Assembly: GCA_020345785.1 (NCBI GenBank)
Contig: CP070771.1
Location: 6,478,710-6,499,467 of the forward strand
From: Desulfobacterales bacterium
Lineage (GTDB): Bacteria > Desulfobacterota > Desulfobacteria > Desulfobacterales > JAFDCJ01
DNA length: 20,758 bases
Reading direction: 5' to 3'
Part shown: one piece after another, positions 1,154 through 15,958 of the stretch
Position numbering within the stretch: position 1 is the stretch's first letter
Layout: every line of letters begins with the position of its first letter
Translations under genes and position numbers: made by a program
The notes under the pieces: model-generated
The model's input: the letters and a program-made list of their open reading frames with translations, nothing else
Databases searched by the model: none
Told to the model about the DNA's origin: nothing

Positions 1154-1921
1154 TTACTGCGGTATTCGAGGAAAAGATTGTATATTCGGCACTTGGCCGC
1201 TGATCCGCAGGATGGATCGGTTGGGAATTTCCTGCCACTTGTCGCGATCCAATTCTGCATTATTGAGCACCTCCGAACAGATGACCATGCCTTTTGGCAA
1301 GCGATAAAAATATAGCCCATAGTAGGCCGCGAATTGATTGAAGTGCCGGATTACAAACAGCTCCCGGCCATTGCTCAGGATGCAGTTCAAAGCGGTATAT
1401 CGTGTTTTCAGAGCAGATATGTTCTTGGAGACTGTTTCTAAAAGATTCTGGTTGGCCTGTCGGTTTGATAAGATAGTCAGTAAAAAATGAAATAAGTACT
1501 CGGAATCCGAACCGCGCGAAGTCAATTTGAAGTCACGATTTCTTGGCAGTGTCTCGGGGTCATGTACCGTGCCGTTGTGGCAAAAAGCCCAGCCGCTATT
1601 AAAGAAAGGGTGCACATTGTCGATCGTAACCGGAACGCCGGGGCTTGCTTTTCTCAGATGGATAAGGAATACCGGCGGCTGCTTATCCAGGGACTCTAAA
1701 GTCTGCCTAAAAGCGAGTGAAAGATCAGCAGCCTCCGCCCGGCGTGCAATTTCAAACATGGTTGTTTGGTCATCCGACGCTCCGGCCATTCCCCAGCCGT
1801 CCCGGTGACCGGGCTCATCCACAACGGGCGGAATGAGTCCCGATTCGGCCAATTTCTGAAATTCCAATGCGATTTCTTTCCAGAACCGGACCTTGCCGTA
1901 TATTGCCAGCAGTCTACACAT
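1154..1921 (-). CDS. Class II glutamine amidotransferase (EgtC/YafJ-like), possible gamma-glutamyl hydrolase
   Basis: The 255-residue protein starts Met-Cys, so Cys2 becomes the N-terminal nucleophile after Met removal. This fixes the start even though the ribosome-binding site is poor. Other class II amidotransferase hallmarks follow: GHRDGWGMAG at 38-47, IHLRKASPG at 87-95, a CHNG oxyanion-type motif at 114-117 and SRGSDSE at 135-141. The domain is a single stand-alone Ntn-hydrolase fold with no synthetase domain attached. In this family EgtC removes a gamma-glutamyl group from an intermediate of ergothioneine synthesis, whereas others feed ammonia to a partner enzyme. It is the last gene of the minus-strand block, 38 bp after an SDR gene and in the same block as a GS-like ligase. 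My inference is that it hydrolyses a gamma-glutamyl amide made by that ligase. Ammonia channelling is the alternative. Confidence 0.82.
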   Translation of the reverse strand: MCRLLAIYGKVRFWKEIALEFQKLAESGLIPPVVDEPGHRDGWGMAGASDDQTTMFEIARRAEAADLSLAFRQTLESLDKQPPVFLIHLRKASPGVPVTIDNVHPFFNSGWAFCHNGTVHDPETLPRNRDFKLTSRGSDSEYLFHFLLTILSNRQANQNLLETVSKNISALKTRYTALNCILSNGRELFVIRHFNQFAAYYGLYFYRLPKGMVICSEVLNNAELDRDKWQEIPNRSILRISGQVPNIQSFPRIPQ

Positions 1922-1959
1922 TGAATCTGCTTTTCATGCTAGAGATTTGATCCGTCTGT

Positions 1960-2721
1960 CTATCCGCCCTTCACCATAATACCGCCATCTACCACAATCT
2001 CCTGGCCTGTAATATACGAAGATTCATCGGAAGCCAGGAATAGGGCACAATTGGCGATATCTTCCGGCTGCCCGATGCGGCCCAGAGGCACCCATGCTGC
2101 AATTGCTTTTTTAGTTTCCTCATCCCACACCTTTTGCATCGGCGTGTCGATTGGTCCAGGGTGGATGGTATTGGCACGGATGCCGTCTTTCGCGTAGACA
2201 ATCGCAAGGGAGCGGGTGAGTGATATCAGCGCACCTTTGCTGCAGGTATAGGCATCCTGGGCGGTTGAAAAACCCAGCAGGGCGGATACGGAGGCGATAT
2301 TGATGATGGAGCCCCCGCCGGCCTTGATCATTTCCGGTATACCGTATTTGCAGACCCAAACTGCCCCTTTAAGGTTGATGTCCATTACCCGGTCCCAGTT
2401 TTCCTCAATCGTGCGGGTGACCTCAAAATCCCTGTCGCGCCAGAGCACGCCGGCGTTGTTGTATAAAATATTCAATTTGCCAAAAGACTTGACGCCCTCT
2501 GCCACTGCTGTTTGGACTTGCTTTTCATCGGCGACATCACAGGGGCAGAATATGGCCTCAGCGCCCTGATCCCGGACCAGCGCCACCGTTTGGTTTCCTG
2601 CTGCCTCATCGATATCCAGCGCGATGATCCGCGCACCTTCACGCGCAAAAATTTCACAGGCCGTCCGCCCTTGGCCCATCCCGGCACCGGTAATCAGGGC
2701 CACTTTATCTGCCAGTCTCAT
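1960..2721 (-). CDS. SDR-family NAD-type oxidoreductase (classical, FabG-like)
   Basis: A 253-residue classical short-chain dehydrogenase. The nucleotide-binding TGAGMGQG is at 11-18, Asp36 at the end of the second strand (LDID) favours NAD over NADP, NNAG is at 88-91, catalytic Ser144 sits in NIAS, and Tyr158 and Lys162 form the YxxxK pair. The C-terminal end DGGIMVKGG is standard. A strong ribosome-binding site (AAGGAGAGG) precedes the ATG. The gene lies 26 bp downstream of the AOR gene, so the two are very probably cotranscribed. The likely role is NAD-linked oxidation of a secondary or primary alcohol in the pathway, or reduction of its ketone. It is clearly paralogous to, but divergent from, the SDR at 4710-5477, which suggests two different hydroxyl oxidations. 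The substrate is unknown. Confidence 0.88.
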   Translation of the reverse strand: MRLADKVALITGAGMGQGRTACEIFAREGARIIALDIDEAAGNQTVALVRDQGAEAIFCPCDVADEKQVQTAVAEGVKSFGKLNILYNNAGVLWRDRDFEVTRTIEENWDRVMDINLKGAVWVCKYGIPEMIKAGGGSIINIASVSALLGFSTAQDAYTCSKGALISLTRSLAIVYAKDGIRANTIHPGPIDTPMQKVWDEETKKAIAAWVPLGRIGQPEDIANCALFLASDESSYITGQEIVVDGGIMVKGG

Positions 2722-2747
2722 ATTTACCTCTCCTTTGTTGATAGAAA

Positions 2748-4658
2748 TTATGATAAGTTAAGCGATTCCGCTACCCAGGCCAATCCCAGTGAACATAGTT
2801 TGCCCCGCGTCGGACACCCATTTTCCCTGTTCCAGTTCATCATTTCATAGTAAAGCGTCACAGCTTCTTCGAACTGCAACGGATCCATTTTGCTGCCTTT
2901 GGCCGGACCTTCCGGCAGCGGCTCGAAAACACGGCCGGGCAGTCGATCCTGCTGACGGTCCATTCCCTCTCTAACATTGAATGCTTTCATCAGGTTAACC
3001 CGCCGCTCGCCGGCCCGCATCAACTCCCAAAAGGTCACCTGCCAACCGGTGGTCGCCGTGACGAACTGTGCAATATCGCGAAAACCATACAGGGCGCCGG
3101 GGCCCCAGCAAAAATCACAGAGGGTCAGGGAATCCATGAGACTATAGTAGAACTGGGACAGCATAGTCGCCTGCACCTTGATTCCATCCAGCGCCTCCAT
3201 CTGACCGAACTCTGACAGACCGAGCCCCCGGCCTAACTCCGTGTCGGCTGCCGCCAGCCAGTCATGCTCCGACGACATATGATCGGCACCGAATGGATTC
3301 ACGGCATACATCAGCGCCTGGCTCGGTTTGATCCGCGGCATGTGGGCTGGAAAGGATTGATTCTTGGTTTGAATGGCAAATTTAGCACAGGCATCGCCCC
3401 AGGCGGAGATGGCGGCCGGGTAGCCGCCGGCGAGAACATCCCCGATGCCCTCGCGCCGGGCGATCATATTCAGCAGCTCGAGGGCCGCCTCGCCGTTTCC
3501 GAAGGTCAATTTGAGCCCGTTGGTTTCCTTTTCCGAAATCATGCCGTTTTCGAAGCATTCCATAGCAAAGGCAATCATGCCACCGGCGGAAATGGTATCC
3601 ATGGTGGATTTGTTGCATATTTCGTTGAGTTTGCAGATCAAATCGAGATCTCCGATGCCCAGATTGGATCCCAGCATCGAGATGGTTTCATATTCGGGGC
3701 CACCATAGCGGGCTTCAATGACGTAGGGTTGTGCGGTCTCGACCACCCGTTTACAGTGCACCACGCAGGACCAGCAGGTATCTGTTTCCTTTAGGATGGT
3801 CTCTGTCAGCTTTTGCCCGGTGATGTTATCAGTTAACTCAAACTGTCCTGACTGAAAGTTGCGCGTCACAATCATGCCAAGCTTTTGAAAATGGGACATT
3901 CCCATGGCTGTGCCGTATTTGCGAAAATTCTGGTGCAGTTCCGAATTGCGGAAAGCCTCGCTGCCTTTTTTGGCCAGCGCCTTGACATCTTCCTCACTGT
4001 GAAAGGCATAGGCGCGTTTACCCCTCACGGCGATGGCCTTCAGATTTTTGGATCCCATCACCGCCCCCATTCCGGTGCGTCCGGCGAAATGGCTCAGCCC
4101 GCCCGTAATGCAGGCGAACTTGACCATGTTTTCTCCCGCCGGGCCGATCTGTGCGATTTCAATATTTCCATCTCCCAGTTCCCGGTGCAGGGCATCCTCG
4201 CACTCGCCGGTCATCATGCCCCATAAATGGGACGCATCCCGGAGCTCAGCGCGCCCCTTATCAAGCCAGAGATATACCGGTGCGGCTGCACGACCCTTGA
4301 TCACCACCGCATCAAATCCGGCGTGTTTCAGCTTGGGGCCCCAACCGCCGCCGCATTGGGCGTCCCCGATGGCACCGGTCAGCGGTGATTTGGCTGTGAC
4401 CGTAAAACGACTCGCGCCGGTAACGGGAGCTCCGGTGAGCACACTCGGCGCAAATACCAGGACATTCCCGGGCCCGAGGGGATCTGCACCGGCGGGGATT
4501 TCTTTAAAGGCATAGTAGGTTCCGATCAGGCTGCCGCCCAAATAGGTTCGATAAAATCCGGCATCCGGTTCGACGATTTCGGTTTGACCGCTTCCAAGAT
4601 CGGCGATGATGATCTTGCCATTGTAACCATACGATTGATTTGCATTATCTGGACTCAT
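2748..4658 (-). CDS. Aldehyde:ferredoxin oxidoreductase family protein (tungsten-pterin enzyme)
   Basis: The 636-residue protein has full AOR-family length and layout. An N-terminal pterin-binding part contains FGAP/ASRFTVTAKSPLTG-type sequence (around 75-95) and TGRTGMGAVMGSKNLKAIAV at about 194-211. The [4Fe-4S] ligands Cys295, Cys298 and Cys302 (CWSCVVHC) are present, and the distant fourth Cys514 (LTLCDFC) sits where Pyrococcus furiosus AOR has Cys494. GPEYET around 320-325 holds the conserved Glu next to the tungsten site. Family enzymes oxidise aldehydes to acids in the cytoplasm and pass electrons to ferredoxin; some act on other substrates or in reverse. The start is supported by AAAGGA 9 bp upstream. 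It sits between two SDR genes, which suggests it oxidises an aldehyde produced by one of them. The usual Gly of the DxxGLC motif is Thr here (DSLTLC). Substrate and metal (W rather than Mo) are inferred from the family. Confidence 0.88.
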   Translation of the reverse strand: MSPDNANQSYGYNGKIIIADLGSGQTEIVEPDAGFYRTYLGGSLIGTYYAFKEIPAGADPLGPGNVLVFAPSVLTGAPVTGASRFTVTAKSPLTGAIGDAQCGGGWGPKLKHAGFDAVVIKGRAAAPVYLWLDKGRAELRDASHLWGMMTGECEDALHRELGDGNIEIAQIGPAGENMVKFACITGGLSHFAGRTGMGAVMGSKNLKAIAVRGKRAYAFHSEEDVKALAKKGSEAFRNSELHQNFRKYGTAMGMSHFQKLGMIVTRNFQSGQFELTDNITGQKLTETILKETDTCWSCVVHCKRVVETAQPYVIEARYGGPEYETISMLGSNLGIGDLDLICKLNEICNKSTMDTISAGGMIAFAMECFENGMISEKETNGLKLTFGNGEAALELLNMIARREGIGDVLAGGYPAAISAWGDACAKFAIQTKNQSFPAHMPRIKPSQALMYAVNPFGADHMSSEHDWLAAADTELGRGLGLSEFGQMEALDGIKVQATMLSQFYYSLMDSLTLCDFCWGPGALYGFRDIAQFVTATTGWQVTFWELMRAGERRVNLMKAFNVREGMDRQQDRLPGRVFEPLPEGPAKGSKMDPLQFEEAVTLYYEMMNWNRENGCPTRGKLCSLGLAWVAESLNLS

Positions 4659-4709
4659 TGGTTTGTCCTTTATCTTATAGTAGTTAGATCCATCGGCGAG
4701 CAGGGGCTT

Positions 4710-5477
4710 TCACGCCCGGGCGATGATGCCGCCGTCAGCGACGTACACGCTGGCGGTAATGTAGGAGGCCTCGTCAGAGGCCAAAAAAAGGCACAAGTTG
4801 GCGATCTCCCGCGGCGTTCCGGCCCGGCCGAGCGGAACCGCTTCCGGCAGGGCCGCGTACACCTTTTCGACTCCGCCAAGCCGTTCGGCGTGTGCGTAGT
4901 TGATCGGGGTGTCGATGAAGCCGGGAGCGATGCAGTTGACACGGATGTTGTCCTTTGCATAATCGATGCCGATGCCTTTGGTGAACTGTGCGATGGCCCC
5001 CTTGGTGCCGCAGTAGATGGACAGGTACGGTTCGGCAACGATGCTGTTGCCGGAACCGATATTGACGATGACCCCCTTTCCCTGGCGCAGCATCTGGACG
5101 ACGGCGTATTTGCAGCCGTAGAATGTGCCCTTGTAATTTACCGCTACGGTGCGGTCGAATATGGACTCGGCCTCCTCTTCATGGATCAGACATGGCAGGT
5201 TGACGCCTGCATTGTTGACCATGACATCCAGGCTGCCCCAGCGATCGACAGCACCTTCCACCAGTGCCTTTACTTCAGTCCCCCTGGACACGTCGGTTTC
5301 GACGAAAAATGCCTCCCCGCCGTTCTTCTCGATGGTTGAAACGGTTTCGCGGCCGCCTTCAATATTGATATCGGCAACCGCCACCCGGGCGCCCTCCTCG
5401 GCGAAGCTTTCGGCGATGGCGCGCCCGATTCCGGAACCGGCGCCGGTCACGATGGCTACTTTATCCTTGAATCTCAT
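4710..5477 (-). CDS. SDR-family NAD-type oxidoreductase (second paralogue)
   Basis: A 255-residue classical SDR when started at the ATG at 5477. An upstream in-frame start at 5537 would add 20 residues with no counterpart in the family and would overlap the preceding gene, while the 5477 ATG has GGGAGG 7 nt upstream. Motifs: TGAGSGIG at 11-18, Asp36 (VADIN) favouring NAD, NNAG at 88-91, Ser142 in NIGSG, Tyr155 and Lys159 (YCGTK), and a standard DGG-containing C-terminal end. The gene follows the GS-like ligase by 46 bp and precedes the AOR gene by 51 bp. Its position directly after the ligase makes it the best candidate for the first oxidation of the gamma-glutamylated substrate to an aldehyde. 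Its exact substrate cannot be told. Confidence 0.88.
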   Translation of the reverse strand: MRFKDKVAIVTGAGSGIGRAIAESFAEEGARVAVADINIEGGRETVSTIEKNGGEAFFVETDVSRGTEVKALVEGAVDRWGSLDVMVNNAGVNLPCLIHEEEAESIFDRTVAVNYKGTFYGCKYAVVQMLRQGKGVIVNIGSGNSIVAEPYLSIYCGTKGAIAQFTKGIGIDYAKDNIRVNCIAPGFIDTPINYAHAERLGGVEKVYAALPEAVPLGRAGTPREIANLCLFLASDEASYITASVYVADGGIIARA

Positions 5478-5484
5478 TTGAAAA

Positions 5485-5490
5485 CCTCCC
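5485..5490 (-). promoter_or_regulatory. Ribosome-binding site fixing the SDR start at 5477
   Basis: GGGAGG on the minus strand lies 7 nt before the ATG at 5477. It decides the start in favour of the short, 255-residue form of this SDR over the longer in-frame reading. Confidence 0.75.
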
Positions 5491-5523
5491 TCAGGGTTGA
5501 CGGGCCTCACAGCCCGGCTGGAT

Positions 5524-6903
5524 TTATACCATTTCAAGGTATTTTCTTTTCTCCCATTCGGTCACATGGTCACAGAATTGCTCATACTCGCAATTTTTGA
5601 ATTCAGCATAGTAGTTAAAGAACGTCTCGCCGAAGTACCTTCGGGCGGTCTCACTTTCCAGGAAGCGCTTGACGGCGTCGCCCAGCGTGCGCGGCATCTG
5701 TTTAGCTTCTGCCGGTGAAACCTCGTAAGCATTTCCGGTGCGCATCGGCGGTGGCTGGATCTTGTTTTCGATGCCGTAGAGTCCTCCGGCCAGCATTCCG
5801 GCCAGAGCTATATAGGGATTGATGTCGGCACCCGGAGCCCTTTGTTCCAGGCGGCAGCCGGATTCGCTCTCGGATAAAACCCTTACGCCAACGGTTCGGT
5901 TGTCGATGCCCCAGGTCTCGTTAATGCCGGCAGCCGTCCCTGGAGCGATGCGTTTGTAAGAGTTAACATACGGCGCCCACATCAAGGCAAAATCGGTCAA
6001 CGTGGCGAGCAGTCCTCCGGCGTAGTAGGCCATCAGTTCGGATACGTGATGCTCCTTAGAAGCATTCCAGAAGAGGTTGCGTCCGGTTTTGCGGTCCACA
6101 ATACTCTGGTGAACGTGACAGCCGCTGCCGAAGTCGTTCGAGTCGAATTTAGCCATGAACGTGGCCGTCATTCCCTTGCGGGCAATGATTTCCTTGACGC
6201 CGCCTTTGTAGAAAAAGGCCCTGTCGGCTGCTGTGAGGATGTCCGCATGGCGCAGCTGGATTTCAAACTGCCCGCCGGAGGCTTCAACCTGGTAGGTGTC
6301 AACCGTGATGCCACGCTGGTTCATGTATTCAACAATTTCTTCGATCAAATCCTGATGAATCGCCATGCGGTAAAGGCTGTAGTCATAGGCACCGGGCGAC
6401 AGGCGTCTGAGGTCCCGGAACCCTTTGGCGGCGATTTCGTTGATCGATTCCGGAAACAGGATAAACTCCAGCTCGGTGGCCGCCAGGACACGGTAGCCGA
6501 GGTCGTTGGCCTGCTTGACCAGCTTTTTCAGCATGGAGCGGGGAGCGACCTCCAAAAGCTCACCGTTGTGTTGATCGTAGACATCACCGATGACGGCCGC
6601 CGTTTTGTTGAGCCAGGGAACCACACCGAATGTGTCCAGATCGGGCCGGATCACATAATCGCGATATCCGTCTTCCCAGCTTGGATACCAGGGAACCTGC
6701 CGTGTGTTTTCATGCAAACCATCCAGGGTGTCCATGTTGTAAATACAGTCGCAGATGCCCAGGCCTTCTTCGCAAATGGTGCCCAGAAAATGACCGGGCT
6801 TGACGCCTCTACCTCTAAAATTGCCGTTCGGATCAGGGGTGCCGACGAGTATTGTCTTCAGCTCCTGTTCTTCGATTAACTGCTTGATATCAGAGCGATC
6901 CAT
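5524..6903 (-). CDS. Glutamine synthetase-like gamma-glutamyl ligase (PuuA/GlnA-like, not housekeeping GlnA)
   Basis: A 459-residue GS catalytic-fold protein. Visible active-site residues correspond to the metal-binding Glu144 and Glu146 (TELEF), Glu207 and Glu214 (VEASGGQFE), His263 and His265 (GCHVHQS), Arg318 (NSYKR), Arg336/Arg341 (NRTVGVR), and Glu353 with Arg355 (RLEQRAPGADINPY). ATP and glutamate activation to gamma-glutamyl phosphate should therefore be intact. The ammonium-pocket loop FDGSS of true glutamine synthetases is absent; the equivalent region reads IYNMDTLDG. There is also no obvious adenylylation-site segment. This pattern is typical of ligases that use an amine in place of ammonia (PuuA, IpuC, aniline GS-like proteins). 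The start is ATG at 6903 with AGGAGG 7 nt upstream; a TTG one codon earlier is less well spaced. It follows livF by about 80 bp. The amine substrate is unknown. Confidence 0.85.
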   Translation of the reverse strand: MDRSDIKQLIEEQELKTILVGTPDPNGNFRGRGVKPGHFLGTICEEGLGICDCIYNMDTLDGLHENTRQVPWYPSWEDGYRDYVIRPDLDTFGVVPWLNKTAAVIGDVYDQHNGELLEVAPRSMLKKLVKQANDLGYRVLAATELEFILFPESINEIAAKGFRDLRRLSPGAYDYSLYRMAIHQDLIEEIVEYMNQRGITVDTYQVEASGGQFEIQLRHADILTAADRAFFYKGGVKEIIARKGMTATFMAKFDSNDFGSGCHVHQSIVDRKTGRNLFWNASKEHHVSELMAYYAGGLLATLTDFALMWAPYVNSYKRIAPGTAAGINETWGIDNRTVGVRVLSESESGCRLEQRAPGADINPYIALAGMLAGGLYGIENKIQPPPMRTGNAYEVSPAEAKQMPRTLGDAVKRFLESETARRYFGETFFNYYAEFKNCEYEQFCDHVTEWEKRKYLEMV

Positions 6904-6984
6904 CAATTCGCCTCCTTTTTAAAGAAATATTATCCAGGTTGCTCGTTAAGAGTATCAGTACTGTGATCAACGCCTCTTCTATAG

Positions 6985-7692
6985 TTAGCCTCCCAGGTAG
7001 GCTTGCTGCACCTCGTGGCTGTCCATCAGGTCTTTGGCCGGACCTTGCAGCACGACGCGGCCGGTTTCGAATACATAGGCAACATCAGCCAGCTCCAGCG
7101 CTTTTTTGGCATTTTGCTCCACCAGCAGCACGGTAACGCCCTCATCCCTGATTTTCTCTATGACTCTGAAAATCTCATCAACCAGAATTGGGGCCAGGCC
7201 CAGCGAAGGTTCATCCAGAAGCAGGAGTTTCGGTCCGTTCATCAATGCGCGGCCGAAGGCCAGCATCTGCCTTTCGCCGCCGCTTAGCGTGCCCGCTTTT
7301 TGCTTCAACCGCTCCTTGAGCACCTTAAAGAGGGTATACACCCGTTCATAATCCGAACTGAGTTTGGCCTGGTCCCTGCGAAGATAGGCCCCGGTGCGCA
7401 AATTCTCTTCGACGGTCAGCTTGGCGAAGATGCGTCCGCTTTCCGGAACCTGGGCAATACCGGCCTTGACGATTCTGGCCGGCTTCCAACCGTCAATACG
7501 TTTGCCCTTGAACCAGATCTCGCCTTCTATAGAGCGGTTGAGACCGGAAAGGGCTTTAAGCAGGGAGCTTTTGCCGGCCCCGTTGGCACCAACCAGAGAG
7601 ACAATCGTCCCTTCCTCAACGCTCAGGGAAACCCCTTTGACGGCTTCGATGCCGCCGTAGCGTACAATTATGTTTTTTACTTCAAGTAGCAT
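6985..7692 (-). CDS. livF: Branched-chain-amino-acid-type ABC transporter ATPase LivF
   Basis: A 235-residue ABC ATPase with Walker A GANGAGKS at 35-42, signature LSGGERQ, Walker B LLLLDEP and the LivF-typical SLGLAP following it, then a switch His replaced in the usual LivF manner by VEQN. The length and the short C-terminal end are standard. The start overlaps the end of livG by 11 bp, so translation is coupled. With LivG it forms the cytosolic ATPase pair of a Liv-type importer. The family name does not fix the substrate: Liv-type systems carry amino acids, amides, urea, aromatics and other small polar compounds. It is directly followed by the GS-like ligase gene, so the imported compound is plausibly the ligase substrate. 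Confidence 0.93.
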   Translation of the reverse strand: MLLEVKNIIVRYGGIEAVKGVSLSVEEGTIVSLVGANGAGKSSLLKALSGLNRSIEGEIWFKGKRIDGWKPARIVKAGIAQVPESGRIFAKLTVEENLRTGAYLRRDQAKLSSDYERVYTLFKVLKERLKQKAGTLSGGERQMLAFGRALMNGPKLLLLDEPSLGLAPILVDEIFRVIEKIRDEGVTVLLVEQNAKKALELADVAYVFETGRVVLQGPAKDLMDSHEVQQAYLGG

Positions 7693-8455
7693 TTACCCCG
7701 CTTCCCAGATAGGCTTCGATCACTTTCGGGTTGGATTGTATTTCCTTCGGGCTGCCTTGGGCGATCTTATTGCCAAAATTGATGACGACGATCTGCTCGC
7801 AAAGCTCCATCACCGCGCGCATGTTGTGCTCCACGACCACCAGGGTGGTACCGAAGCGGTCGCGGATGCTGCGGATGGTTTCGATCATTTCTGTCGCTTC
7901 ACTGGGGTTCATTCCCGTCAGCGGCTCGTCCAGAAGAAGAATCTTGGGTTTGGCCGCAAGCCCGATGGCTACGCCGAGCCGGCGCTGAATGCCGTGCGGC
8001 ATATTTTCCGCCAGCTCGTCCTCAATGTGGCGAAGGCCCATTATATCCAGTATCTCCAATGCTTCTTTATACAGCGCCATCTCTTTTCGGCGATAACTGC
8101 CGAGATTGAGAAGTGATTCGAAAAAGCCGATGTTCGATTGCAGATGAAACCCGACCAGAATATTCTCGAGAGCGGTGTAACCCTTGAAAAGCGTTACCAG
8201 CTGATAGGTCCGCACAATTCCGAGCTTGGCGATCTGGTGCGGCCGCATACCGCATAAATTTTGTCCTTCAAACAGGATGCGGCCACCTGAAACGCCGAGT
8301 TCACCGGTTATCAGATTGAAAGTTGTGGTCTTACCGGCTCCGTTGGGTCCGATCAGCGCGACGATTTCGCCCTGATCGGCCGCAAGATCAAGTTTATTCA
8401 CCGCGGCAAGACCGCCGAAAAATTTGGAAACACCTTTAAGATCCAGCTGAGCCAT
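7682..8455 (-). CDS. livG: Branched-chain-amino-acid-type ABC transporter ATPase LivG
   Basis: A 257-residue ABC ATPase with Walker A GPNGAGKT at 36-43, Walker B ILLLDEP and a switch His in VVEHNM. The signature is unusual for ABC proteins: MPHGIQRRLGVA in place of LSGGQ, followed by LTGMNPSEA after Walker B. I recall related MPHG/LPHG variants in Liv-like systems for compounds other than leucine, so this points to a subtype rather than to damage. It overlaps livM upstream by 20 bp and livF downstream by 11 bp, giving a tightly coupled operon. Confidence 0.93.
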   Translation of the reverse strand: MAQLDLKGVSKFFGGLAAVNKLDLAADQGEIVALIGPNGAGKTTTFNLITGELGVSGGRILFEGQNLCGMRPHQIAKLGIVRTYQLVTLFKGYTALENILVGFHLQSNIGFFESLLNLGSYRRKEMALYKEALEILDIMGLRHIEDELAENMPHGIQRRLGVAIGLAAKPKILLLDEPLTGMNPSEATEMIETIRSIRDRFGTTLVVVEHNMRAVMELCEQIVVINFGNKIAQGSPKEIQSNPKVIEAYLGSGVNAT

Positions 8456-9494
8456 GCCTTAGATCCTTTTTTCCGCGACCCGTCAACCGCCTCAAAGACT
8501 CGATCAGTAAAAACGGAAGACTGACCAGCCCACCGGGCAAAAAAAGCAGGATAAAGATCAGAAACCCGGAGTACAATAGCAGCTGCAGGTGGGCATAGCC
8601 GGCAAACACCTCGCCGGCCATCATCAAAACCACCGTGCCCATGATTGGACCGATAAAATTTTCCTGGCCGCCGACAACGGTGTAGATTGCCAGGTAAATC
8701 GTCAGCAAAACGGTGAAATCGAGCGGGGATATGTAGTAGGTGTAATGCGCATAGAAGCTGCCTCCCATGGCCGCCAATCCCGAGCATACGGCAAATGCGA
8801 GCACCTTGTAATTCATGATATTGATGCCGACTGCCCTTGCCAGCTTGTCGCCCTCGCGAATCGCTCCAAAAACCAGTCCAAAGCGTGACTTTTCCATGCG
8901 ATGCAGAACATAAAGCGTTAACACCATCAGAAAAAGGGCTAAAAAATAGTAGTGGAACTTTTCATTGAAATCGATTACGCCGATACCCGGCAGGTGGATA
9001 GGGTCCGGTCCGGGAATGGAGAATATTCCGAGCGGTCCGCCAAACGGTTCTTTGAAGCGAATGTAGATGAATCGGAGGGTTGCACCGGCCCCCCACGTGA
9101 TAATGGCAAAATAAACGCCTTTAAGCCTTAAAGCGGGATATCCGATCAAGACGGCAAAAAAGGCCGCCACGATCCCAGCCACCGGCATCGCCAGCCAGAA
9201 GGAAAAACCGGCCCGCATCACCAGCAGCACCGAGGTATAGGCGCCGATGCCGATAAACGCATGCGCGCCGAAATGGAACTGTCCGGTACGCAGCACAAAT
9301 CGATAGGTCGTTACATAGATGATGTGGTAAAAAACTGCAATCAGTACATGCAGCGAATAATTATTTCGAACAAACAGCGGAATGAGGCAGAGCACCAGCA
9401 GCGCTATACCGAAATAAAGTGGTGACCACTTCGTAGCGTTGATTTCCCGGGAAAATTTGGAAACCGAAGCTATGCGGGCCTGTGCCTGTGTCAT
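8436..9494 (-). CDS. livM: Liv-type ABC transporter permease LivM
   Basis: A 352-residue polytopic membrane protein with around nine hydrophobic segments. It has the LivM/BPD_transp_2 hallmarks GQFHFGAHAFIGIGAY near residue 72, the FGxxxGAIREGDKLARAVGIN cytoplasmic coupling loop (about 210-226), and GGQENFIGPIMGT near residue 270. Its first ATG overlaps the livH stop codon (ATGA). The basic, hydrophilic C-terminal end (RRLTGRGKKDLRH) is on the cytosolic side. With LivH it forms the transmembrane pore of the importer. Confidence 0.92.
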   Translation of the reverse strand: MTQAQARIASVSKFSREINATKWSPLYFGIALLVLCLIPLFVRNNYSLHVLIAVFYHIIYVTTYRFVLRTGQFHFGAHAFIGIGAYTSVLLVMRAGFSFWLAMPVAGIVAAFFAVLIGYPALRLKGVYFAIITWGAGATLRFIYIRFKEPFGGPLGIFSIPGPDPIHLPGIGVIDFNEKFHYYFLALFLMVLTLYVLHRMEKSRFGLVFGAIREGDKLARAVGINIMNYKVLAFAVCSGLAAMGGSFYAHYTYYISPLDFTVLLTIYLAIYTVVGGQENFIGPIMGTVVLMMAGEVFAGYAHLQLLLYSGFLIFILLFLPGGLVSLPFLLIESLRRLTGRGKKDLRHGSAGS

Positions 9495-10357
9495 TCTCTC
9501 TCTTCTCCCATCAGTCCTGTTGGCCTGAATATCAAGAAGGTGACGACGAATATGAAAATCAGCCCCCAGGTTATATCCGCTCCAAGGTAGGAGCCGCCGA
9601 AAGACTCAATGATGCCAATAATGAAAGCCGATATCAGAGCGCCGGGAATGCTGCCCAGCCCCCCGAGGCCGATGACCAGCAGTGAGATCAAGACTGCATG
9701 AGACCCCATGGTCGGCGTCAGAATGAATATCGGCGCCACCAGAAGACCGGCCAGGGCCGCCAGGCCGCAGCCGATAAAAAACCCCATGCTGCAAACGGCA
9801 TCATTACTGATTCCCTGCAGTTCAGCTGTTTCCGGGTCCTCGGCAAACGCCCTCATGCCTAACCCCCAGCGGCTCTTCATGAGAAACAAATATAAACCCA
9901 CGACTGCCAGCAGGCTGATCAGGACGACAACGGCCCGCTCCCAGCTGATTACTGCGCCTGCGATGCTGATGCGGCCGGTGAACACCGAGGCCACAGGTTT
10001 GGGACGCAGGCCGAAAACCAGGAACCCGGCGCTCTCCAGAAACCAGTTCAAACCAATCGCCAGAAAGATAACGGCCACATGGTCCCTGCGAATCGGTCGG
10101 AAGAAACCTTTCTCGATCACCACACCCAGCAGCCCGTTGATGAAAATACCGATGGGGATCGCCAGAAAATAATTGATCCCCAACTTGGCGCACAGGTAGT
10201 AGGCCGTGTAGGCGCCAAGCATGTACATGGCGCCGTGGGCAAAGAAGAGAATATCCATGATGCCGAACAGCAGGGTAAGACCCAGCGCCAGCAGGGCATA
10301 GATAGCACCGATCGAAATCGCATTGATGACAATCTGGATGAAGCTTTGAATATCCAT
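9491..10357 (-). CDS. livH: Liv-type ABC transporter permease LivH
   Basis: A 288-residue membrane protein with about eight hydrophobic segments and the LivH pattern: ISIGAIYALLALGLTLLFGIMDILFFAHGA near the N-terminus, the coupling loop GLGMRAFAEDPETAELQGI around 165-183, and LGGLGSIPGAL near the C-terminal third. It is preceded by GGCGGA as ribosome-binding site, lies 132 bp after livK with a hairpin in between, and its stop overlaps the livM start. It forms the permease heterodimer with LivM. Confidence 0.92.
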   Translation of the reverse strand: MDIQSFIQIVINAISIGAIYALLALGLTLLFGIMDILFFAHGAMYMLGAYTAYYLCAKLGINYFLAIPIGIFINGLLGVVIEKGFFRPIRRDHVAVIFLAIGLNWFLESAGFLVFGLRPKPVASVFTGRISIAGAVISWERAVVVLISLLAVVGLYLFLMKSRWGLGMRAFAEDPETAELQGISNDAVCSMGFFIGCGLAALAGLLVAPIFILTPTMGSHAVLISLLVIGLGGLGSIPGALISAFIIGIIESFGGSYLGADITWGLIFIFVVTFLIFRPTGLMGEERE

Positions 10358-10445
10358 AATCCGCCAAAAAAAATTCAGGTGATCATTGCCGGACGCCTGC
10401 TATGAAAACATGAGCTGCTGCAAGGGTGCATTTCTCAGGCGGCAA

Positions 10446-10487
10446 GCATCCGGCACTGCGGATATGCAGGCGGGTCCTGACCGGACC
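10446..10487 (-). promoter_or_regulatory. Two hairpins between livK and livH (differential-expression element candidate)
   Basis: Just after the livK stop the RNA can fold into a short stem (GGTCC with GGACC, 10473-10487, 5-nt loop) and then a longer one (GCATCCG with CGG-AT-ATGC, 10446-10467, one 2-nt bulge). Neither is followed by a U-run, so neither looks like an intrinsic terminator. A hairpin after the binding-protein gene often protects that part of the message from 3' decay and allows more binding protein than permease. That role is inferred. Confidence 0.35.
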
Positions 10488-10489
10488 AG

Positions 10490-11704
10490 CTACTTGAGAT
10501 AAGTGGCATACGCGCCGGTTATCACCTGAACCAGCTCGCCATTTTGAACCTGGCAGACGTTATAGGGATAAAGCGGCATACGATTGATACCGTAATAGCC
10601 TTTGCCCGCAAAATAAGCCGGTTCACCAAAGACGCTTTTCAACTGCATTTTCTCCAGGTGGTTGCTGACGATGGTGGTGTCGAACGAATTCGCTTCTTCG
10701 AAGGCAGCCGCCAGCCAGAAGGCAAAATCCCACAGCAGGTAGGCCAGAGATCCGATCCAGTTTTCTTCACCGTAGCGTTGGATGTATTCCTTTTCGACAT
10801 GTTTCTGTGCATCGGTCAGCTTGGTCTCATAAGGCAGAAAGTATAATCCCTCACAGTTTTCCCAGCCGGCTACGTTCTTCAAATTGGCCACATCCGGCGT
10901 GATCAGATACATGGGCCCCTTGAATCCCATCTCGCGCGCCTGTTTGACGAAGAGCGCCCGCGAGGCAGGGTCGACGTTGCCGATGTCGATCAAATCCGGC
11001 TTGGTTTTAAGCATGCGGGTAAGGATCGGGTAGAAATCGGTTGTGTCCGGAGGAAAGTATTCATCAAACACAATTTCAAGTTTGGTTTTGGATATCCCGA
11101 AGCGAGACGCTTCGGCGGTGGTGTGCCCGGTCCAATGATCCGGCTCGAGAATTGCAATTCGCTTGTGGTCCGTATTTTTTTCAAGCCAGGGATAGAAAAT
11201 GACCGAGGCAATGCAGTCGACGCCATACATCCAGGTGTAGAAATTCTTGGGATTGATATAGTCTTTGCCCGGTGAGGCATAGGCTATTGTAAACACCTTG
11301 GCCCTCTCGCTGATCGGCTGAAAGGCTTTGATCATGCCGCCGTCAAAGGCGAGGATATATTTGACCCCGTCTCTGGATATCAGCCGGTTGGCGGCCGAAA
11401 CCGCTTTAGAGGCATCAAACGCATGGTCATAGACCTGAAGCTTGAAATTGTATTTCTCTCCGTTGACGGTGATCCCTTTTTTCTTCCACCACCAGCCGCC
11501 GTTGTTGATGTCGTCGACGGCCATCTGCCAGGTGTTTTGCATGCCGATGCCCCAGGGCGCCGCCGGACCTGACAACGCGGTAATACCGCCCAGGATTATC
11601 TCCTTTGGTTTATCTGCGGCGCCGGACGCCGAAGTAAACAGAATTAACATCAGAACCGCCATGACAACCATGGTACCGCTTGACTTTAAAATGCATCTTT
11701 TCAT
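10490..11704 (-). CDS. livK: Liv-type periplasmic substrate-binding protein
   Basis: A 404-residue Peripla_BP_6-type protein. A Sec signal peptide (KR-rich n-region, hydrophobic core VVMAVLMLILFT, cleavage after about SASGA at 29) shows export to the periplasm; there is no lipobox Cys. The mature start KEIILGGITALSGPAAPWGIG is the standard first strand and ligand loop of the LivK/AmiC/UrtA fold. AAGGAG lies 6 nt before the ATG. The protein is longer than LivK (about 345 mature residues) and holds an unusual NNGGWWWKKKGI stretch at about 67-78, so the ligand is probably not a simple branched-chain amino acid. It is the first transporter gene, 103 bp after the regulator gene. That gap could hold its own promoter, though no clear -35/-10 pair stands out. 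Confidence 0.88.
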   Translation of the reverse strand: MKRCILKSSGTMVVMAVLMLILFTSASGAADKPKEIILGGITALSGPAAPWGIGMQNTWQMAVDDINNGGWWWKKKGITVNGEKYNFKLQVYDHAFDASKAVSAANRLISRDGVKYILAFDGGMIKAFQPISERAKVFTIAYASPGKDYINPKNFYTWMYGVDCIASVIFYPWLEKNTDHKRIAILEPDHWTGHTTAEASRFGISKTKLEIVFDEYFPPDTTDFYPILTRMLKTKPDLIDIGNVDPASRALFVKQAREMGFKGPMYLITPDVANLKNVAGWENCEGLYFLPYETKLTDAQKHVEKEYIQRYGEENWIGSLAYLLWDFAFWLAAAFEEANSFDTTIVSNHLEKMQLKSVFGEPAYFAGKGYYGINRMPLYPYNVCQVQNGELVQVITGAYATYLK

Positions 11705-11807
11705 GATCTGCTCCTTTTTTTAATACCGTTTTGATAGCCGTTAATGAAAAAAGAAAAATGGTCCTCTCCAAAAACGCTATGTTGAATTGGTGCTTGCCCC
11801 GGGCGCG

Positions 11808-12689
11808 CTATCTGTCAAACTGCGAATAGTGCAGCCGGCTCGACTGGACTACCCGCTGGAACTCGCCCAAAGCCGCCTCTGTCCGAACTGTATTGGTGGA
11901 TGCAATCTGTTCGGCGATCGCATTGATAAAGCAAAAGGGCGCCGTCAATGAGATCAGCATAAATTCGTGGCCCGACATATCGATTGTGAAATTGATGTCC
12001 GAGAACTGAACGATTTGTGCGCGGGGCTGATTGGTAACGGTTACCACACGGGCTCCCACTTTTTTTTCATGCACATACTCGATCGCTTCCAGCACTTCGG
12101 CCGAATAGAGCAGCTGATCGAATGCGATCAACAGGTCATCTTTATCGATAAACAGAAGCTGCTGAATCATGGGGCGCCGCTCCCGGATAACCGGTGTGGC
12201 GTTAAGAGACAGCAGCCTCAGGCAAAAACTCAGATACTCCGCCAGAAAAGACGATATCCCCCAGCCCATGCAAAAGATATTTCGAGCCTGCAGGATATAT
12301 TCGATCAATTTCTCGAAATCTTTCTTGTAAATACCCGCCATCGTCTTTGTGATGTATTCGATGTCTTTGTTTGTGACAAGATCAATCAGGGGATGCTTAT
12401 CATGACCTTTCAGCAGGGAGGCTTTTTGGGCCGGGTAGATGATCTGGCGGATGTAGGCCACAAGATCCTCTCGCAGTTCCCTGAAACCATTGTAGCCCAG
12501 TTCGCGAGCATATCGAACCAGAGTCGCATCGGAGACACCGACTTTTTTAGATATTTCGGTCAGCGATGCGAAAGTTGCCAAATCGAGGTTATTTAAAATG
12601 AAATCGGATATTCTCCGATTGGTGTCGTTTAAATTACCGTAGCTGTCTCGAAGCAGCTGTAGTATGTTAGTATTTTTTCGGCAAGGCAT
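11808..12689 (-). CDS. MurR/RpiR-family transcriptional regulator (HTH + SIS domains)
   Basis: A 293-residue regulator with an N-terminal RpiR HTH domain (about 1-80, with LTEISKKVGVSDATLVRYARELGYNGFRELR) and a C-terminal SIS effector domain (about 110-260, with IFCMGWGISSFLAEYL as the ligand-loop region). SIS domains normally bind phosphosugars, but members of the family also govern amino-acid and aromatic catabolism. The start is taken as ATG 12689 rather than the TTG one codon before it. It stands at the head of the minus-strand block, upstream of the binding-protein gene in the same orientation, and a TGTAG/CTACA palindrome array lies 128 bp upstream. It is the obvious local regulator of the pathway. 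Whether it represses or activates is not visible. Confidence 0.9.
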   Translation of the reverse strand: MPCRKNTNILQLLRDSYGNLNDTNRRISDFILNNLDLATFASLTEISKKVGVSDATLVRYARELGYNGFRELREDLVAYIRQIIYPAQKASLLKGHDKHPLIDLVTNKDIEYITKTMAGIYKKDFEKLIEYILQARNIFCMGWGISSFLAEYLSFCLRLLSLNATPVIRERRPMIQQLLFIDKDDLLIAFDQLLYSAEVLEAIEYVHEKKVGARVVTVTNQPRAQIVQFSDINFTIDMSGHEFMLISLTAPFCFINAIAEQIASTNTVRTEAALGEFQRVVQSSRLHYSQFDR

Positions 12690-12816: not shown

Positions 12817-12841
12817 TGTAGCATTTACTACAGAAATGTAG
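12817..12841. promoter_or_regulatory. Putative RpiR-type operator: TGTAG-N6-CTACA-N4-TGTAG
   Basis: Three 5-bp half-sites alternate in orientation: TGTAG at 12817-12821, CTACA at 12828-12832 and TGTAG at 12837-12841. A fourth TGTAG is at 12938-12942. HexR, an RpiR-family repressor, recognises a closely similar TGTAR...YTACA palindrome, which supports binding by the adjacent regulator. The site lies in the AT-rich region between the divergent regulator and DUF362 genes, so it could control both. The half-site spacings here (6 and 4) differ from the 5 of HexR. Confidence 0.5.
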
Positions 12842-13005
12842 CTTATATTTAATACCTGTCAGAATATTTGTCAATGTTTTTTTAACCGATGGCAAAATTT
12901 TTCCAATATTGTATTTTTATTTGCGTCTGAAAACTGATGTAGTGTATTGGTATTCCCCTTGACGGAATTTAAAATGGGACGGGAAATTAGAAAGCGGGAA
13001 ATAAT

Positions 13006-13365
13006 ATGGCAACGGTCAGCATAATTCAGGCAGCCTATTCAGATCCCGGCATTGAAAACCTGCTGGCGCCTTTGGGCGGAATGGGGCAATTTATTAAAAA
13101 GAATGAGAATGTCCTGCTCAAGGTGAATCTTTTATCCGCCAAAGCGCCGGAAAAGGCCGTGACCACGCACCCTGAATTTGTAAGGGCCGTGGCCCGGGCT
13201 GTCAGAGATGCGGGAGGAGAACCGTACATTGGAGATTCACCGGGAGGCTCCCTTTCCAGGAGAAGTCTAAAAAAAGCCTATCAGCGTTCAGGGTTGATGA
13301 ATCTGGCACAAGCAGAACAGACCCCGCTGAAGCTTGATACCGGCGTAACAGTTAAGCTGGTATAA
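13006..13365 (+). pseudogene. DUF362 domain protein, N-terminal fragment truncated by the IS66-like element
   Basis: The 119 codons match the N-terminal part of DUF362 proteins: VLLKVNLLSAKAPEKAVTTHPE at about 36-57, then VRAVARAVRDAGGEPYIGDSPGG at about 59-81. DUF362 proteins usually run to about 300-450 residues and often carry ferredoxin-like 4Fe-4S domains. Here the reading ends at a TAA just where the IS66-like element begins, and no remaining part is found on the other side of it. The gene is divergent from the regulator and shares its 316-bp control region. Before truncation it may have been co-regulated with the pathway, possibly in electron transfer next to the AOR; that is inference. 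Confidence 0.7.
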
Positions 13366-13433: not shown

Positions 13434-14312
13434 ATGGGAAACAATCTGGTTGTTCAAGGGCGACGTTTAAGTTTGCAAGATATTGACTTGCTGTCTCGGC
13501 TCATCAAACAAAATCCGTCCTGCAGCCGCCGTCGCCTTTCAATAAAATTATGCCACCTGTGGAACTGGCGCAACGCCAACGGGCAAATTAAAGACATGGC
13601 TGCGCGGGCAATGATGCTCAAACTTGATAAGTTGGGCTACATCAAATTGCCCCCAAGGCGCCAAACCCCCTCCAATCGGATGCTGAGCAAACGCATTGAC
13701 TCGGTGGCGCATCCAACCACTGCCATTGAATGTGATCTAAAAGAAATCCTGCCTTTGCAGCTGGTCCTTACCCGCAACCAGCCTGATCATGAATCACTTT
13801 TCGCCTGCCTGCTGTCGCAATACCATTATCTAGGCTACCGAGGCATTGTCGGTGAAAACATGAAGTATTTAGTATTTGATCGGCATCAACGCCCTTTGGC
13901 ATGTGTCTTATTTGGTTCGGCGGCCTGGTCGGTTCAGTGTCGCGATAACTATATTGGCTGGGATGCCGATAAACGCAAACATAATTTAAATTTCACCACT
14001 AACAATATGCGGTTTTTAATTTTGCCCTGGGTACGCGTTACCAACTTGGCCAGTCATATTCTGGGGCTGATCCGCCGCCGCCTGAGCCTGGATTGGATCA
14101 ACCACTACGGTCATCACTTGTATTTACTGGAAACTTTTGTTGACAAAGATCGCTTTAACGGTACCTGCTATAAAGCCGCCAACTGGATTTATGTCGGCCA
14201 GACCAAAGGCCGCAGCCGCAATGACCGTTATGCACGGCTTAAAGTACCGATCAAAGATGTTTACCTATTGCCGTTGGTCAAAGAGTTTAAGCAAAAGCTG
14301 AAAATTATCTAA
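13434..14312 (+). CDS. DUF4338 (DruA-like) protein carried by the IS66-like element
   Basis: A 292-residue protein with the DUF4338 core. Recognisable stretches are YHYLGYRGIVGENMKYLVFD (about 124-143), PLACVLFGSAAW near 150, NNMRFLILPWVRV around 187-199, and the highly conserved LETFVDKDRFNGTCYKAANWIYVGQTKGR (about 239-267). DruA of the Druantia anti-phage system belongs to the same family, but no other Druantia genes (no DruE helicase) are present. Stand-alone DUF4338 genes beside transposases are, to my knowledge, common, and this one ends only 5 bp before tnpC, so its translation is probably coupled to it. The function is unknown; a role in transposition or element maintenance is the simplest guess. 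The gene is intact. A poor GGTGG ribosome-binding site precedes the ATG. Confidence 0.7.
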   Translation: MGNNLVVQGRRLSLQDIDLLSRLIKQNPSCSRRRLSIKLCHLWNWRNANGQIKDMAARAMMLKLDKLGYIKLPPRRQTPSNRMLSKRIDSVAHPTTAIECDLKEILPLQLVLTRNQPDHESLFACLLSQYHYLGYRGIVGENMKYLVFDRHQRPLACVLFGSAAWSVQCRDNYIGWDADKRKHNLNFTTNNMRFLILPWVRVTNLASHILGLIRRRLSLDWINHYGHHLYLLETFVDKDRFNGTCYKAANWIYVGQTKGRSRNDRYARLKVPIKDVYLLPLVKEFKQKLKII

Positions 14313-14317
14313 ACCAA

Positions 14318-15958
14318 ATGGCCACTACTGAAACCGAAGACTTATACTTTTACCAATCAGAAGATCGAAACGATCTTGCCGCCTTGCTTTCCGATGAATC
14401 CTTTCGCAATCTGCAGGCGCAAATTAAGCGATTGAAAAAAGATTCACCGCCCGTCTCGGGGTTAGGTATCGATCATCCACACTATATCCCGCGCACCGTC
14501 GATGAATGTCTGCAAAAAATGCAACGCCTTCCACAACGCTATAATTGGAGTCGGCAATTAGGCTTTTTCATCGAAATCTCTGAGCGCGATGCCCAGCGAC
14601 GTCTGCGACAGCTGAACAAAGAAAACCAGCTACTAAAAATGCAAAACGATGAATTGAAAAACGAACTCATCAGCGCACGCCACCAGCTGCAAACCCTGCT
14701 CGGCGTTAAAAAACGCAAATCGAAAAAGAGCGCTGATACCGATAAAGATAAAACACCATCAACGCAATCAAGCAAAAGAGGTGCTCCAGTTGGTCATATG
14801 GGAAAAACGCGACCCATTTCCGATAACGTCAACAATCAGCAAATCGTAGCACCACCGGATATCTGCCCCCATTGCGGTGGTACTGAAACAGTGCTCGAAG
14901 ATGACTTTATATCCAAGTATATCGAAGACATTGTCCCAGTGGTCAAAACCGTTACCGAACAACTATACCAGTGGGCCAGCTGTACTTATTGCGGCAAGCA
15001 ACTGATTGCCAAACAAGCCACAACCGGTGCGCGGGTAACCATCGGACCCAATCTGGTTGCCTGGCTCACGCTGCTCAGACAACAGATGGGCGTCTCATAC
15101 CGTAAGCTGAGCCAACTTTGCACCGAAACATTGCAAATCCCGCTCTCGGCACCAGCCGTGATGGGCATCATCAACCGCTTCAGTCAAAAATGCGAGCCGA
15201 TCTATAAAGGCATTGAGGCCAGCCTGCCGACACAACCCGTATTGCACGCAGATGAAACCGGCTGGCGCATGCACGGCAATCCATGGCAGCTGTGGTGCTT
15301 TTGCAACCGCTCGCTGGTCTACTTTCATCTGGATCCATCCCGCGGCGCTAAAGTTCCTAAAGCGATCCTGGGGCAAGATTATGACGGCATTTTGCACGCG
15401 GATTTTTATGCGGTTTACAATTTTTTCACCAGGGTTCAACGTTGTCTGATTCACTTTCTACGCGCTATCAGCGATGAGGTTGAAATTACCCCAAAAGATA
15501 AAAGCCTTACTCAGCTCAAAGAGGGCATTAAAAACATCATTGAAAAAGGAACTCAGCTTAAAAAGCTTGCTAATACCCGGCAAAAAGACGCCGGGTGACA
15601 ACAGCTTCAACAGACACTTGAATCCTTGACAAAACTAAAATCAGAAAACAAAAGAACTAACACGCTGATAAAACGTTTAGTGCGCCATCAACAGGAGTTA
15701 ATCCGCTTTGTCGATCATCCAGACGCCGAGTTTCATAATAACCGGGCTGAACGGAGCCTACGACCGGAGGTTTTTTTTAGAAAATTGTCCTTTGGCAATC
15801 GAACACCGGCGGGGGCTTATAACTACCAAGTTCTGGCAACTGTTCTTGAAACATGCCGGCTGAAAAGAAAAAACCTCACCGATTTTATTCATGCCGTTTG
15901 GCTAGCTACCAAAGATCAACTAATCCCTATCACCCGCGATCTACTTGACACATCATAA
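14318..15958 (+). pseudogene. tnpC: IS66-family transposase TnpC, interrupted by an in-frame TGA
   Basis: Reading 14318-15958 in one frame gives a 546-codon TnpC with a single TGA at 15596-15598; there is no frameshift. The N-terminal part is coiled-coil-like (RQLNKENQLLKMQNDELKNE near 98-117). A zinc-binding pair CPHC...CTYC follows at about 184-222, and then the IS66 DDE core: HADETGW (first Asp), LHADFYAVYN (second Asp) and NNRAERSLRP (Glu), the last lying after the stop codon. Without read-through the product lacks the catalytic Glu and is dead. The codon CGA (Arg) changed to TGA by one C-to-T transition would explain it. The downstream part could start only at a TTG (15626) and is not a functional gene. 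Confidence 0.85.

Follow-up and report, generated by a model that had tools for sequence, protein, structure and literature searches.

Introduction

Glutamate tagging of amines is known from aerobic or oxygen-using settings, for example in Streptomyces, Escherichia coli and Paenarthrobacter. We describe here a minus-strand operon of a Desulfobacterales bacterium, located in a stretch of 20,758 nucleotides (contig CP070771.1, positions 6,478,710 to 6,499,467; the whole stretch is hereafter called the window), which encodes a ligase resembling glutamine synthetase (GS), an aldehyde:ferredoxin oxidoreductase of the AOR family and two short-chain dehydrogenases/reductases (SDR-A and SDR-B). The closest known logic is that of the GlnA4 ethanolamine pathway of Streptomyces coelicolor (SCO1611-SCO1615), with the AOR filling the slot of an aldehyde dehydrogenase (ALDH). 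In the available sections of the published account (PMC6529630), the Streptomyces cluster comprises an SDR, an aldehyde dehydrogenase, glnA4, a regulator, a transporter and an amidotransferase, and the proposed route leads from ethanolamine through gamma-glutamylethanolamide, gamma-glutamylacetaldehyde and gamma-glutamylglycine to glycine and glutamate. GlnA4 glutamylates ethanolamine in vitro; it has lost the GS residues E327 and D50 and carries a changed Y179, and on these grounds its amine was argued to be bigger than ammonia (PMC6529630, same sections). The same ethanolamine route has been proposed for Chromohalobacter salexigens (PMC9397018, available sections).

A sequence-only reading of the window had already suggested gamma-glutamylation of an amine or amino alcohol and had set the block against the Puu pathway of E. 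coli. Our analysis leads to the view that the operon is probably catabolic and degrades a small amino alcohol anaerobically, be it ethanolamine or one of its slightly larger relatives, through gamma-glutamyl intermediates and with the AOR as aldehyde oxidase. As judged from its genes, the block would work like the GlnA4 pathway, although two tested features, the ligase clade and the ALDH, set it apart from that family.

Organization of the operon

The genes run on the minus strand from position 12689 to position 1154 in the order rpiR, livKHMGF, ligase, SDR-A, AOR, SDR-B and a gene with the fold of class II amidotransferases, and they are one real operon. From livF to the last gene the gaps amount to 26 to 81 bases, counted from the preferred ATG starts, and livH/livM, livM/livG and livG/livF are overlapping pairs. 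The likely ATG starts of rpiR, the ligase and SDR-A were corrected to 12689, 6903 and 5477, respectively. Pfam domains in the block are GATase_4, two SDR domains, AFOR_N with AFOR_C, Gln-synt_C, an ABC ATPase (LivF), two BPD_transp_2, Peripla_BP_6 and HTH_6 with SIS. The single block of named genes announced by the sequence-only reading was thus found where it had been placed, tightly spaced and with the expected domains. Inspection of the block's open reading frames (ORFs) and Pfam, the latter covering all genes but livG, revealed neither a PuuB-type FAD amine oxidase nor a PuuC-type NAD aldehyde dehydrogenase.

The ligase

The GS-like ligase (5524-6903, minus strand; Gln-synt_C) is predicted to act on an amine, more precisely an amino alcohol. 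Among the best 120 of 1475 matches of a protein search, in which the contig of the window protein appears with 7.2 Mb, 18 full-length members share at least 62% identity, the window ligase included, and the next ones lie near 43%. In a 61-row tree, whose root serves for drawing only, these 18 members and the ligase of locus L001, described below, make up one 19-row clade (100/100). This clade sits inside a group (97/97) with GlnA4-type rows, 5dm3 (Csal_0679 of C. salexigens), IpuC and others; the GlnA4-type rows owe their name to the synteny (SDR, ALDH, ligase, amidotransferase) that they share with the published cluster, not to an accession. PuuA and GS fall outside the group. The phylogeny against PuuA and IpuC that had been recommended as a check therefore takes the ligase away from PuuA and gives it a clade of its own in the GlnA4/IpuC/Csal_0679 group. 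The solved structures closest to the ligase are 11zs (259 bits) and 5dm3 (257 bits), other GS-family chains listed scoring at most 181 bits; lower-scoring chains are 8wwu (1-naphthylamine GS, 172 bits), 9qur (gamma-glutamylmethylamide synthetase, 145 bits) and 4hpp (63 bits), which is PauA7 (PMC6529630, available sections).

On a second alignment, 18 GS positions were compared across the 19 rows of the clade. Thirteen of them are kept in every row (E129, E131, E212, E220, G265, H269, H271, R321, R339, R344, E357, R359 and Y397), and S53 is Ser in a single row. Two ammonia-site residues are lost throughout, Y179 being Asp in all 19 rows and E327 being Ala in 18 and Phe in one. These two positions carry the argument that the window ligase is very likely a gamma-glutamyl-amine ligase and unlikely to be an ammonia GS, which agrees with the lack of the ammonia loop noted in the sequence-only reading. 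The combination typical of GlnA4-type ligases, absence of E327 and Y179 with metal and nucleotide residues retained, is present in 19/19 rows. The Asp at Y179 is common to the GlnA4-type rows, TrGS (Thermomicrobium), Acidimicrobiales rows, the ligase of L004 and 5dm3, and offers the best sequence hint towards an amino alcohol substrate; elsewhere the position holds Thr (IpuC), Val (PuuA) or Gly (11zs). At the E327 position, GlnA4-type rows have Phe or Trp whereas the window clade has Ala.

A structure model of the ligase (mean pLDDT 72.8, active-site loops below 50) gave the expected match to the GS fold. The best ligase match in 689 plasmid records was IpuC at 38.7%, and in a scan of viral contigs none of 53 pattern stretches was confirmed. 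Another protein met in the searches, P0348 (1034 amino acids), joins a PF00120 (GS) domain to a complete AOR. The GS half most resembles ordinary GS (38% to E. coli GlnA) and, by eye, has Ala where E. coli GS has E327; the junction looks frameshifted by eye, and we take P0348 to be neighboring genes, possibly not truly fused.

The placement of IpuC bears on a different explanation, in which an amine devoid of hydroxyl groups, such as an alkyl- or arylamine handled in the manner of IpuC or of the aniline enzymes, would be gamma-glutamylated while the SDRs and the AOR would work elsewhere on the molecule or on an aldehyde set free at a later stage. IpuC belongs to the same ligase group, its pTC1 cluster includes an SDR, an ALDH and two amidotransferases, albeit next to a P450 and a ferredoxin, and the small Ala residue in place of E327 could leave room for a larger amine. 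However, neither a hydroxylase nor an amine oxidase was seen among the block genes, and the Asp at Y179 is shared with GlnA4- and ethanolamine-linked rows and not with IpuC (Thr). We consider this explanation unlikely and keep an amino alcohol as the likeliest class of substrate.

The aldehyde oxidoreductase and the dehydrogenases

The AOR gene (2748-4658, minus strand) has the features of its family: PF02730 and PF01314 (AFOR_N and AFOR_C), four iron-sulfur (Fe-S) cysteines, and a Glu and a His near the cofactor. C295, C298, C302, C514, E324 and H460 are invariant in 22 rows and correspond to C288, C291, C295, C494, E313 and H448 of Pyrococcus furiosus AOR (1aor), the latter numbers having been counted on the printed alignment. 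An AOR in the aldehyde-oxidation slot, as the sequence-only reading had it, is supported; what distinguishes the window AOR from 1aor is its presence in an operon with a gamma-glutamyl-type ligase. Our literature search found no paper joining an AOR with gamma-glutamylation, and both terms occur as separate matters in the available sections of PMC5023235.

Among 389 genomes of the class (up to three candidates scored per genome), 18 have an AOR passing 1e-200, and scores above 1200 bits occur only in the two genomes with the ligase, the next value being 785. In the phylum survey, 11 of 146 genomes reached the threshold and G002 alone exceeded 800 bits (up to eight candidates per genome), and none of 86 plasmid records carried an AOR at 60% identity or more. 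Twenty-four AOR matches were recorded in the class survey and ten places were read more widely. In the short flanks of 31 other AOR loci, an iron-dependent alcohol dehydrogenase (Fe-ADH) lies beside the AOR in five (L050, which is the same place as L080, L051, L052, L053 and L099) and an SDR lies beside or near it in two (L055 and L056). Locus L071 (6328-15451) has a class I amidotransferase, an RpiR regulator (56% to that of the window), an AOR, an Fe-ADH, an M24 peptidase and a TRAP transporter in a row; a GS-like gene was not found in the 17 kb around this AOR.

SDR-B (1960-2721, minus strand), a predicted NAD alcohol dehydrogenase, has relatives of 81% and 83% identity directly after the AOR in L001 and L002. 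SDR-A (4710-5477, minus strand; SDR domain), predicted to be an accessory NAD alcohol dehydrogenase, stands between ligase and AOR in the window only and is absent from that place in L001 and L002. An Asp at the end of beta-2 goes with a preference for NAD in SDRs, and both proteins have it, which suggests that both use NAD. The two NAD-type SDRs expected from the sequence-only reading are therefore present, but SDR-A is not a conserved part, and two SDRs were rejected as a defining trait. An amino alcohol, for which the pair had been taken as an argument, still appears the likeliest class of substrate, with SDR-B as the only SDR conserved alongside ligase and AOR.

The class II amidotransferase

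The last gene of the block (1154-1921, minus strand) encodes a predicted gamma-glutamyl amide hydrolase with the traits of class II glutamine amidotransferases, a Cys2 nucleophile and the N-terminal nucleophile (Ntn) fold. The protein starts with Met-Cys, and Cys2 is present in 16/17 aligned rows, the remaining row starting later. Its closest fold is that of the EgtC hydrolase (4zfj, 4zfk, 4zfl) at 23% identity. Within the 389 class genomes (up to six candidates scored per genome) a class II amidotransferase of this type occurs in eight, of which only G002 also has the ligase, some 4 Mb away. As an invariant part of the system it was rejected, the clusters of the other ligase genomes lacking it over the length of their contigs; the Cys2 protein described as EgtC-like by the sequence-only reading is thus real, although it scores below the EgtC family cut-off and is not conserved.

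Three of the eight carry this amidotransferase of the window family together with another GS-like gene and an isochorismatase-like gene (L089, 1823-3963; L090, 4803-7757; L092, 3659-6523), and Liv genes adjoin this set in L089 and L092. Of these genes, Pfam covered the GS-like ones of L089 and L090 as well as the isochorismatase of L090, and the rest were identified by tblastn or by eye. This cluster seems to encode a second pathway, for an amine or an amide. Some of the other five amidotransferase contigs are short (L091, 3.8 kb; L095, 3.2 kb).

Conservation of the core

A scan of genome contigs with the ligase yielded 25 loci, three of which are in the clade and come from two Desulfobacterales genomes. 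At L001 the order is RpiR-LivKHMGF-ligase-AOR-SDR-B, followed by an M20 peptidase. In chromosome record CP070697 a run of N interrupts the ligase: at L003, an M20 peptidase and a class I amidotransferase precede RpiR-LivKHMGF and the N-terminal part of the ligase, and L002 comprises the C-terminal part, AOR, SDR-B and a flavin-reductase-like gene. Runs of N in this record leave the two halves of the operon some 600 kb from each other, which is probably an artefact of scaffolding. The core RpiR-LivKHMGF-ligase-AOR-SDR-B hence recurs in both other genomes found (2/2), and neither SDR-A nor the class II amidotransferase is in either cluster as far as the contigs reach. The linkage anticipated by the sequence-only reading is borne out for this core and fails for those two genes. 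That the three genomes have differing candidate amide hydrolases would be in keeping with an indispensable step whose enzyme can be exchanged.

The clade ligase is rare, with 2/389 sampled class genomes; a third match at the ligase threshold, in G151, represents a more remote ligase with an Fe-ADH next to it. Four or five candidates were scored per genome in the class and order surveys, whose samples are largely the same genomes. A further set of matches comprised the best 120 of 129, and the AOR relatives were taken from the best 120 of 6957 matches. Pairing of ligase and AOR by equal contig size, an indirect measure, joins 6/21 of the other clade ligases among the matches listed (P0002-P0022) with a close AOR, and 5/9 of those on contigs of at least 6 kb. 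Conversely, among the matches listed, three of the ten AOR relatives with at least 66% identity on contigs of at least 12 kb pair with a clade ligase, and P0251 corresponds to CP070697. Over eight pairs, ligase and AOR identities are correlated (r 0.72, Spearman 0.45, Mantel p 0.002). Of the ten wider AOR neighborhoods, L080 alone has a GS-like gene: there, a GS-like gene with both ends missing stands in a row with a C26-type class I amidotransferase, an Fe-ADH and an AOR (43% identical), a second, damaged assembly on the same idea of GS-like enzyme, amidotransferase, alcohol dehydrogenase and AOR.

These distributions also speak to a model without a linear pathway, in which AOR, SDRs and Liv system would belong to an ordinary route of alcohol or amino acid breakdown, and the ligase would only detoxify or assimilate a nearby amine under a shared regulator. 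The AORs of the wider family lie mostly away from GS-like genes (1/10, L080), and six close AOR relatives on long contigs are not tied to the ligase among the matches listed. Yet ligase, AOR and SDR-B keep their order in all three genomes, with SDR-A intervening in the window only, and a set of ligase, SDR and aldehyde-oxidizing enzyme recurs, with an ALDH, in other bacteria. We find such a model quite improbable and prefer a single catabolic pathway for an amino alcohol.

Regulation and import

The operon begins with the RpiR-family regulator (11808-12689; HTH_6 and SIS), which has relatives at the same place in L001 (57%) and L003 (65%). It is followed on the minus strand by a LivK-type substrate-binding protein (10490-11704; Peripla_BP_6; 74% in L001, 86% in L003), LivH-type (9491-10357) and LivM-type (8436-9494) permeases, both with BPD_transp_2 and relatives in the other loci, a LivG-type ATPase (7682-8455; identified by ORF and tblastn, with relatives of 62% in L001 and 68% in L003) and a LivF-type ATPase (6985-7692; ABC ATPase domain; relatives in L001 and L003). 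In a weak alignment of LivK with the leucine-binding protein, S79, T102, Y202 and E226, which we take to be ligand contacts of the latter, are not kept, and we draw no evidence on the substrate from LivK.

Upstream of rpiR lies an operator-like palindrome, TGTAGTAAATGCTACA (12817-12832, minus strand), preceded by a putative -35 hexamer TTGACA (12869-12874, minus strand) that is a consensus match only. The palindrome TGTARTRAAYRYTACA occurs upstream of rpiR at three loci (window, L001 and L003) and starts 42, 37 and 44 bases, respectively, after the start of TTGACA, in line with the operator-like site noted in the sequence-only reading. An automated palindrome scan listed nothing at its settings, and visual inspection of the sequences then revealed the operator. 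As the consensus derives from these very sites, their agreement is an observation, not a test; at one mismatch or fewer it has one site in the window and none in 100 shuffles. The sigma-70 scan (18 sites; shuffle mean 10.9, standard deviation 3.9) and the terminator scan (16; shuffle mean 13.9) were not used. A biosynthetic operon, making and trimming a gamma-glutamyl amide as an osmolyte or part of a natural product, would suit the ergothioneine-biosynthetic name of EgtC but is highly improbable, considering the dedicated importer, the RpiR regulator with a site at its promoter and the lack of further biosynthetic genes seen in the block.

Genomic setting

Transposase genes stand on both sides of the block, IS200-like at 395-745 and IS66 at 14318-15598. 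A DUF362 ORF at 13006-13365, divergent from rpiR, has only 119 amino acids and covers domain positions 1-70 of 200; it was perhaps cut by the adjoining mobile element. At 13434-15958, a DruA-domain protein lies directly upstream of the IS66-type transposase gene, which is seemingly split into two ORFs, the domain assignment being that of the first. Two large TPR-repeat proteins occupy the minus strand at 16440-20756: the one at 16440-18326 has a guanylate-cyclase-type domain, and the second runs off the window end.

Discussion

Like the GlnA4 cluster (PMC6529630, available sections), the block brings together a GS-like ligase whose ammonia site is altered, an SDR, an enzyme for aldehyde oxidation, a hydrolase of amidotransferase type, a regulator and a transporter, the last being part of the GlnA4 cluster in some species. 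The window differs in having an AOR instead of the NAD aldehyde dehydrogenase, a Liv ABC importer, an RpiR regulator, an amidotransferase of class II and not class I, and a ligase of a separate clade with Ala instead of Phe at E327. Clusters of ligase, SDR, ALDH and class I amidotransferase were found at L004, L005, L067 and L068; L069 has ligase and SDR, and on a Thermomicrobium plasmid a relative of the ligase adjoins an SDR and an annotated ethanolamine permease. The set recurs elsewhere, and therefore the ALDH slot of a known set would here be filled by the AOR. The ipu cluster of Paenarthrobacter aurescens TC1 (plasmid pTC1) shares the ligase group and has an SDR, an ALDH and two amidotransferases nearby, but it has a P450, a ferredoxin and a ferredoxin reductase, and no AOR is annotated in the stretch read. 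With the Puu pathway of E. coli the block has glutamate ligation, oxidation and hydrolysis in common. As the model for the block it was rejected: the tree places PuuA, on a long branch, outside the ligase group, PuuB- and PuuC-type enzymes are missing and the hydrolase is of another class. With Puu falls the idea that an oxygen-using oxidase had been replaced. In the GlnA4 pathway a dehydrogenase, not an amine oxidase, makes the aldehyde; therefore nothing oxygen-dependent in that step needed replacing.

From the gene order, protein families, residues and core conservation, which are directly observed, we infer the reactions, substrate, electron acceptor and repression as follows. LivKHMGF would import the amino alcohol, and the ligase would join its amine to the gamma-carboxyl of glutamate at the expense of ATP. 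SDR-B, helped by SDR-A in this genome, would oxidize the hydroxyl to an aldehyde with NAD, and the AOR would oxidize this gamma-glutamyl aldehyde further to the acid, with ferredoxin as electron acceptor. The protein with the amidotransferase fold would then cleave the gamma-glutamyl amide to glutamate and an amino acid, which would be glycine in the case of ethanolamine. RpiR would repress the operon at the palindrome just downstream of its promoter. Glutamylation may block the reaction of amine with aldehyde, and ferredoxin reduction may repay part of the ATP spent.

Several observations pull the other way. In the ligase, position N264, which in GS belongs to the glutamate site, holds Phe in 19/19 clade rows, the D50 column holds Asp in none of the 19 and Glu in nine, in a stretch that aligns poorly, and Ala at E327 may mean a different substrate of a different size. 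The ligase is outside the GlnA4 clade, the node that unites it with the GlnA4 set having support of 89/88 only, and the placement of PuuA, flagged as a long branch by the tree tool, is unsure. The amidotransferase scores 66.9 bits against an EgtC (TIGR03442) cut-off of 218.65 and was not found beside a clade ligase outside the window. No ferredoxin gene was seen in the block. Linkage of AOR to ligase is not constant, since six of the ten long-contig AOR relatives among the matches listed are not tied to a clade ligase, and the correlation of identities could come from common descent alone.

More tentatively than the assignment to an amino alcohol, we propose that Desulfobacterales and uncultured relatives may possess a dedicated anaerobic gamma-glutamyl branch, in which a tungsten AOR oxidizes a gamma-glutamyl aminoaldehyde and the ATP is partly repaid as low-potential reduced ferredoxin and not as NADH, the ligase clade with Ala for the E327 flap residue representing a new amine specificity. 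If true, glutamate tagging of amines would also work without oxygen. An AOR subfamily would gain a physiological substrate class, glutamyl-protected aldehydes, for which the literature search found no assay. It would also provide a concrete test of AOR substrates and a candidate route for the turnover of amino alcohols from lipids in sediments.

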